The notes under the pieces are model-generated. The model had not been told where the DNA came from. It searched no databases and saw only the letters and a list, made by a program, of their open reading frames with translations. Both the position numbers and the translations under genes were made by a program. Below, piece by piece: positions 5,747-6,902 of a stretch of DNA of 64,000 bases. The DNA is from Thermaerobacter marianensis DSM 12885 (GTDB lineage: Bacteria; Bacillota; Sulfobacillia; Thermaerobacterales; Thermaerobacteraceae), in contig NC_014831.1 in NCBI RefSeq assembly GCF_000184705.1, positions 1,612,001-1,676,000 on the forward strand, in the 5' to 3' direction. The number at the start of each line of letters is the position of its first letter. Within the stretch, counting starts at the first letter, position 1.

Positions 5747-6214
5747 TCACGGGCCGTACCAGAGCACGCACCCGGCGAAGACGCACCCGCACCGCTCCAC
5801 CACGTGCTCCACGGCGCGGACCAGGATCTCCCGCGGGCGGCCCCCGCGAATGGTGAAGCTCTCCTCCACCATGCGGCGGATGGCAGCTTCCACCTCGCTG
5901 GCACTGGCATATGCGGTGTGCTCCATGATCATGCCGAACCGGCCGGGGTCATCCCGGCCCACGGCCACGGCCGCCGCGATGCGGGTCCCCGGCTCGGCCG
6001 ATACCAGCCGCCCATAGGCGATGGGAACCAGGGCGCCGGGCGGAAGAACCAGCCGTTCCAGGGCCTTGGCACCCGGAGGCAGGATGCTGGAAACCTTCAC
6101 CAGGTTGACGTTGGCCACCCCGGCGTCGAGGAGCGCCGCATCGAAGGCCGTCAGGGGCGTCTCGCCTTCGGCCCGCCCCGTCACCAGGGCAAACCGGTTG
6201 GGAATCGGCAACAT
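5747..6214 (-). CDS. Pyruvoyl-dependent arginine decarboxylase
   Basis: A 155-residue proenzyme that cuts itself between two serines to form a beta chain and an alpha chain with an N-terminal pyruvoyl group, then converts arginine to agmatine. The processing site is the S42-S43 pair in NLVKVSSILPPG, matching the Ser52-Ser53 site of the Methanocaldococcus enzyme. The C-terminal part (MIMEHTAYASASEVEA... and the EESFTIRGG region) is typical of the family. The ATG at 6212-6214 follows GGAGGTG by 9 nt. Transcribed away from the unusual 6215-6665 region. The product would feed polyamine synthesis, important in thermophiles; no agmatine ureohydrolase gene is visible nearby. Confidence 0.9.
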   Translation of the reverse strand: MLPIPNRFALVTGRAEGETPLTAFDAALLDAGVANVNLVKVSSILPPGAKALERLVLPPGALVPIAYGRLVSAEPGTRIAAAVAVGRDDPGRFGMIMEHTAYASASEVEAAIRRMVEESFTIRGGRPREILVRAVEHVVERCGCVFAGCVLWYGP

Positions 6215-6395
6215 CGCCACCGGCACCTCCCGGCCGTCCTTGCCGGCGCTGCCCGGGCCCGGGTCCGCCGTAGGCGTTCGACTCGGCCCGAGGCCGGCGC
6301 GGTTCACGCCCCATGCTATGGCCGTGGCGCCGCGGGGGTGCAGTACGGGTCCGGGCGGCCGCCGGGGCGACCGCCCGTCACCGCCCGTCCAAGAC

Positions 6396-6499
6396 ATGTC
6401 CACAGCGGAACGCCGGTTCATCCCCAACCGGGGCCGATTTGTCCTCACCATACCCGCCCTTATCCCCAGCCATCGACGCTTGTCCACAGTTTGTCAACA
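6396..6499 (+). promoter_or_regulatory. Phased cluster of six DnaA-box-like 9-mers
   Basis: Six same-orientation 9-mers resembling the DnaA box (TTATCCACA, or TTGTCCACA in high-GC bacteria) start at 6396 (ATGTCCACA), 6418 (TCATCCCCA), 6439 (TTGTCCTCA), 6460 (TTATCCCCA), 6480 (TTGTCCACA, perfect to the high-GC form) and 6491 (TTGTCAACA). Start-to-start spacings are 22, 21, 21, 20 and 11 bp, i.e. two and then one helical turns. There is no dnaA, dnaN or rpmH next to it, so a DnaA-titration or DnaA-regulated site is likelier than oriC. Other proteins could bind it. Confidence 0.5.
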
Positions 6500-6550
6500 A
6501 GGAGCGACACGGTCTTCCAAGAAGGGACAAGGCGTCAGCGGCCTGTCGCG

Positions 6551-6601
6551 CCGGACCGGGGTCGCCCCGAAGGGGGAGGGCGGGGCGACCCGACGGTCCG
6601 G
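6551..6601 (+). promoter_or_regulatory. Large hairpin in the leader of the Spo0E-like gene
   Basis: The arms at 6551-6569 and 6581-6601 pair over 19 bp with only a 2-nt bulge (GA at 6592-6593). The 11-nt loop is purine-rich (AAGGGGGAGGG). It ends 64 nt before the GTG start of the Spo0E-like gene, with no U-tract, so it may stabilise or attenuate the leader rather than terminate. Confidence 0.5.
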
Positions 6602-6665
6602 CCTCTGCCGATTCGACCCCTGGCTTCCCCCTGCCCCGAGTTCCCCAAGGTTGGAGGTGGACGGC

Positions 6666-6902
6666 GTGGCGTCCCCAGTCCCGTCCGGCCGGCATCGCTG
6701 GCCCGGCCTGGTGGAGCACCGGGCCGAACAGGCCGAGATCGAGCGCCTGCGCAACCTGCTCTACCGGCTGGCCCGCCGGCGGGGCTACGCCGATCCCCAG
6801 GTGGTCGAACTCAGCCGCCAGCTGGACGACCTGATCACGGCCTGGTACCGCGCCCACGGAGCGCCCGGGCGCCTTGAGCCCCGTACCCTGACGGCCTCTT
6901 GA
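6666..6902 (+). CDS. Spo0E-like aspartyl-phosphate phosphatase
   Basis: A 78-residue small helical protein with the Spo0E-family signature: two helices, ERLRNLLYRLARRRG (26-40) and DPQVVELSRQLDDLI (43-57), the second holding the SxxLD motif (S50-R-Q-L-D54) that dephosphorylates response-regulator aspartates such as that of Spo0A. The GTG start at 6666 follows GGAGG by 8 nt; reading further upstream would run through the DnaA-box cluster and hairpin. The ~20 N-terminal residues are an extension. It would act as a brake on the sporulation phosphorelay. The location behind a DnaA-box-like array hints at replication-linked control (inference). Confidence 0.8.
   Translation: MASPVPSGRHRWPGLVEHRAEQAEIERLRNLLYRLARRRGYADPQVVELSRQLDDLITAWYRAHGAPGRLEPRTLTAS

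Follow-up and report, generated by a model that had tools for sequence, protein, structure and literature searches.

A conserved, helically phased cluster of DnaA-box-like sequences upstream of a Spo0E-like gene in Thermaerobacter

The intergenic region between pvlArgDC and spo0E

The genome of Thermaerobacter marianensis comprised one contig of 2,844,696 bp with a GC content of 72.5%, and the window, i.e., the whole stretch of 64,000 nucleotides that was analysed, covered positions 1,612,001–1,676,000. T. marianensis 7p75a was described as a thermophile with 72.5% GC in which terminal spores were seldom seen (PMC3035304). Six DnaA-box-like 9-mers on the same strand were found within 104 bp at positions 6396–6499 of the window (genome 1,618,396–1,618,499; Table 1). 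An earlier sequence-only reading had given their starts as 6396, 6418, 6439, 6460, 6480, and 6491 on one strand, and all six were recovered there. The two neighbours that it had named, an arginine decarboxylase gene on the minus strand and a Spo0E-like gene on the plus strand, were confirmed by PF01862 and PF09388, respectively.

Table 1. Coordinates of the array and its flanking features, counted from the first position of the window.
Feature	Position	Strand	Description
Pyruvoyl-dependent arginine decarboxylase gene (pvlArgDC)	5750..6214	-	PF01862, E 2e-44; divergent from spo0E
DnaA box 1	6396..6404	+	ATGTCCACA; 1 mismatch to TTRTCCMCA; CTATCCACA / TCGTCCACA in relatives; position kept in 4 genomes
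DnaA box 2	6418..6426	+	TCATCCCCA; same in 4/4 genomes
DnaA box 3	6439..6447	+	TTGTCCTCA; TTATCCCCA in the three relatives
DnaA box 4	6460..6468	+	TTATCCCCA; exact TTRTCCMCA, one of 20 genome-wide; rank 3 in window by the oriC-trained matrix
DnaA box 5	6480..6488	+	TTGTCCACA; exact TTRTCCMCA; TTGCCCACA in relatives; rank 2 in window by the oriC-trained matrix
DnaA box 6	6491..6499	+	TTGTCAACA; invariant in 4/4 genomes; adjoins -35 element
Putative SigH-type promoter	6500..6524	+	-35 AGGA 6500-6503, 17-nt spacer, -10 GAAG 6521-6524; conserved in 4 genomes
Leader hairpin	6545..6605	+	GC-rich; in presumed spo0E mRNA 5' leader
Spo0E-like gene (spo0E)	6666..6902	+	78 aa; GTG start after GGAGGTGG; PF09388, E 5e-11

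The product of the Spo0E-like gene carried the SxxxD signature of the Spo0E family (PMC11115286) in the form SRQLD, which placed it among the Spo0E-like phosphatases. One Spo0E-family gene each was found in T. marianensis (G000), G001, and G002, and two were found in G003. Spo0A was present in all four Thermaerobacter genomes. A search for Sda (PF08970) gave no match in these four genomes and detected the B. subtilis control.

The pvlArgDC gene of the window was 94% identical in the three relatives, and a second pyruvoyl-dependent arginine decarboxylase gene at genome positions 2,811,071–2,811,529 shared 53% identity with the window copy. Upstream of pvlArgDC, at ~6308–6345 on the minus strand, a CATACCAT/CATAGCAT-like element and GCACCCCC were common to the four genomes and may represent its promoter, with a -10-like part that resembles those of sporulation sigma factors.

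The boxes differed from the pattern TTRTCCMCA at no more than one position and from TTATNCACA, the consensus published for B. subtilis, at no more than two. Their spacings of 22, 21, 21, 20, and 11 bp had been taken to place them on one DNA face, and this helical phase was borne out (R = 0.964 at a period of 10.5 bp; P ~0.002 against random placement over an equal span). Spacings of 11 and 21 bp were also present among the oriC boxes of the genus. The A at position 6 of box 6 recurred in an invariant box, TTATCAACA, of the cluster upstream of hpf and in CTATCAACA beside oriC.

The location away from dnaA was likewise verified: dnaA lies at genome ~500–900 (879) and the array starts at 1,618,396, 57% of the way round the chromosome, and the array is thus far from oriC. 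A second oriC at this site was rejected; the GC skew of the window did not switch lastingly at 6400, and dnaA and the boxes belonging to it occupied genome positions 1–2150.

Conservation and rarity of the array

The array was found at the same place in all four Thermaerobacter genomes compared, with all six boxes kept. Conservation of the spacing had been set beforehand as a check, and it held to ±1 bp in the four genomes while the linkers diverged; the spacings in the other three were 21-22-21-20-11 or 22-21-22-20-11. Invariant columns made up 41 of 54 box positions versus 16 of 50 linker positions (P = 1e-5); restricting the comparison to the first four boxes gave 24 of 36 versus 9 of 38 (P = 4e-4). 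Across the array the four genomes represent three independent sequences, because two of them are nearly identical here. No array was found at the 26 Spo0E loci from other genera among the 30 listed in a sample of 121 genomes of the class, those of the sister genus included. Arrays were not found at pvlArgDC genes outside the genus. The conserved core had no match in a wider contig search, which may leave out the genome itself and its near relatives.

In principle, such 9-mers could cluster by chance in a GC-rich genome, and several of the boxes do differ from the consensus. The genome-wide statistics, which came from pattern searches, spoke strongly against this. TTRTCCMCA at ≤1 mismatch occurred 347 times on the forward and 379 times on the reverse strand (726 in the 2.84-Mb genome), and the number of same-strand clusters of six boxes within 104 bp expected in the whole genome was ~2e-8 for this pattern, which was picked after the array had been seen. 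The number remained as low as ~4e-4 when TTATNCACA, the published consensus, was used with ≤2 mismatches. In 200 Markov sequences of 100 kb (20 Mb), 104 bp never held more than two boxes. A matrix built only from the boxes around dnaA in three genomes of the genus ranked the six boxes 2, 3, 17, 33, 45, and 47 among 127,984 9-mer positions of the window; these ranks are rough, because the matrix rests on seven distinct sequences. The array was therefore not ascribed to chance, since ~2e-8 such clusters were expected and all six boxes stood high on the oriC-trained matrix. With its conservation in four genomes and the scarcity of box chains described below, an origin by chance was refuted and can be considered extremely improbable.

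Clusters were sought in the four genomes as two same-strand boxes with starts ≤39 bp apart. Chains of at least three boxes recurred at three places only, in all four genomes: oriC, upstream of hpf, and the spo0E array. The array is thus one of very few clusters in the genus, and equally good clusters at random sites, which would have spoken against the sequence-only reading, were not scattered over the genomes. The hpf cluster (genome 223,452–223,571) consisted of TTATCCCCA, TTATCAACA, TCATCCACA, TTGTCCACA, and CTATCCACA, was conserved in all four genomes, and lay upstream of a gene for a ribosome-hibernation factor (PF02482 and PF16321). Two further boxes, TTGTCCACA and, inverted on the opposite strand, TTATCCACA, lay at genome positions 107,954–107,985. 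This pair kept its 23-bp offset in 4/4 genomes and preceded a small protein that contains a helix-turn-helix resembling sigma-70 region 4. Two extra weak matches to DnaA-family ATPases, perhaps of mobile elements, were present in each of G001–G003 and absent in T. marianensis.

On every sequence criterion tested, the array is a non-oriC DnaA-box cluster, and binding of DnaA to it is well supported at this level. Spo0A boxes resemble DnaA boxes, with which they overlap at the B. subtilis oriC (PMC5295017), and the array might accordingly bind another regulator such as Spo0A and merely resemble DnaA boxes. One TGTCGAT (1 mismatch to TGTCGAA) occurred within the array of the three relatives, and TTTGTCAAC overlapped box 6. 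However, T. marianensis had no 0A box there at ≤1 mismatch, and boxes 1–5 misfit the 0A consensus and fit the oriC boxes of the genus, which makes this alternative very unlikely. No LexA-type palindrome was conserved, and neither Spo0A nor LexA boxes were accepted as the identity of the array.

Promoter-like element and leader of spo0E

In the conserved block, box 6 ran directly into AAGGAGCGACA-N10-CAAGAA(T/G)GGACA. The SigH motif consists of AGGA and GAAT with a spacer of 17–18 nt (PMC12456013). In the putative promoter of spo0E, the -10 was an exact GAAT in G001 and G002 and GAAG, one base off, in T. marianensis and G003. Searches for AAGGA...GAAT with spacers of 13–21 in two genomes gave 16 of 63 and 15 of 53 matches at spacer 17, ~3 times as many as the other spacers had on average. 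Neither SigA-type promoters nor intrinsic terminators were found in 6150–6720, and a search for riboswitches or other Rfam RNAs found none, the best match being far below the cut-off.

The hairpin in the presumed leader had a folding energy of -45 kcal/mol (z -2.3) and a purine loop, GGGGGAGGG; <1% of the 66-nt stretches of the window folded as well. It is not an ordinary terminator because it has no T-run. The relatives carried similar leader hairpins with altered stem sequences.

Possible control of spo0E by DnaA

The boxes, the promoter-like element directly behind them, and a gene for a predicted inhibitor of the Spo0A pathway followed each other in a layout of the sda type. Activation of sda by DnaA at upstream boxes delays sporulation in B. 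subtilis; Sda blocks KinA/KinB and hence Spo0A~P, by which replicating cells are kept from sporulating (PMC4447404, PMC5295017). The array resembled the yqeG-sda cluster, which has 7–8 boxes, in that its boxes lay upstream of a gene for a small protein that blocks, or in Thermaerobacter is predicted to block, Spo0A activation, and both were intergenic between two gene starts and far from oriC. However, the target in Thermaerobacter was Spo0E-like and would act on Spo0A~P, whereas Sda inhibits KinA/KinB, and, unlike in the sda region, the boxes were all on one strand with ~21-bp phasing at a promoter that looked to be of the SigH type. The array stands outside the sda system despite the similar logic, because the gene is a PF09388 Spo0E-like gene and not sda.

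On balance, we consider it probable that the array is a true non-oriC DnaA-box cluster that serves as the upstream control region of spo0E, from which DnaA raises transcription and delays sporulation. DnaA, most likely in its ATP form, would bind in vivo and assemble cooperatively on one DNA face over ~100 bp, where it could contact RNA polymerase at the adjoining SigH-type promoter. Transcription of spo0E would then rise when active DnaA is plentiful, near initiation or when replication is blocked, and Spo0E, if it acts on Spo0A in this genus, would inactivate Spo0A~P, so that sporulation is delayed until replication is finished. By analogy with sda, DnaA probably activates spo0E, and replicating cells would therefore delay sporulation. 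The sequence-only reading had raised a possible link between replication and sporulation through a DnaA cluster at a brake gene. This reading was supported by the conserved spacing and by the rarity of such clusters, and the promoter-like SigH-type element, which abuts the last box and points toward spo0E, strengthens the proposed link. On the other side, T. marianensis has a weak box 1, a weak box 3 (TTGTCCTCA), and a -10 of GAAG instead of GAAT. In addition, a SigH promoter would already couple spo0E to the onset of sporulation, and replication may thus only modulate spo0E.

The sign of the regulation could be the opposite, because most of the named B. subtilis operons controlled by DnaA (ywlC, vpr, trmE-noc, yyzF-yydD, and ywcI-sacT) are repressed. 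Bound DnaA might thus repress spo0E and lower the brake, since box 6 touches the -35 element and its occupancy could block polymerase; or, given that the array sits between divergent genes and hence also upstream of pvlArgDC, DnaA might act on that gene and govern polyamine synthesis. However, five of the six boxes lay entirely upstream of the promoter, where activator sites would be expected, and the array was most strongly conserved toward spo0E, most of the sequence on the pvlArgDC side having diverged. Repression of spo0E or an action on pvlArgDC is therefore regarded as quite unlikely.

If DnaA does activate spo0E, the arrangement suggests that replication may hold back spore formation via a previously undescribed wiring. 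It is tentatively proposed, at somewhat short of even chances, that Thermaerobacter independently wired DnaA to Spo0E, a different sporulation brake, and that the coupling of replication to sporulation hence arose on two or more occasions through different output proteins. The logic of DnaA acting on a brake may thus recur with different proteins. In the literature found, the separation of replication and sporulation in spore-formers outside the Bacilli is little worked out, and a conserved array on the spo0E promoter, in a genus with no detectable Sda, offers a concrete and testable answer for one deep-branching lineage. By titles and abstracts, the literature naming DnaA and Spo0E together did not have such a link as its topic.

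The main rival of spo0E control is that the array titrates DnaA or serves as a nucleotide-switch site that tunes free DnaA, in the manner of the B. subtilis clusters or of datA/DARS in E. coli, its adjacency to spo0E being incidental. In B. subtilis, joint deletion of all six non-oriC clusters led to early initiation (PMC5295017). The genus likewise has only few clusters, and the array lies ~55–57% of the way round from dnaA, similarly in three genomes. However, the conserved block continues through box 6 into the promoter-like element of spo0E, and neither the abutment on a promoter nor the 21-bp phasing is needed for titration alone. Titration by itself is thus unlikely; it is possible alongside regulation of spo0E, with which it is compatible, and the two are not exclusive.

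Like the B. subtilis clusters at ywlC, ywcI/vpr, gcp/ydiF, trmE, and yydA, the clusters of Thermaerobacter were few, intergenic, multi-box, and outside oriC; unlike there, the neighbour genes were different. The array also resembled datA and DARS1/2 of E. coli, where clustered DnaA boxes on the chromosome, at a distance from oriC, modulate the activity of DnaA, DARS1/2 working with IHF or Fis. E. coli datA works with IHF (PMC5295017). Unlike datA and DARS, the array in Thermaerobacter was tied to a promoter.
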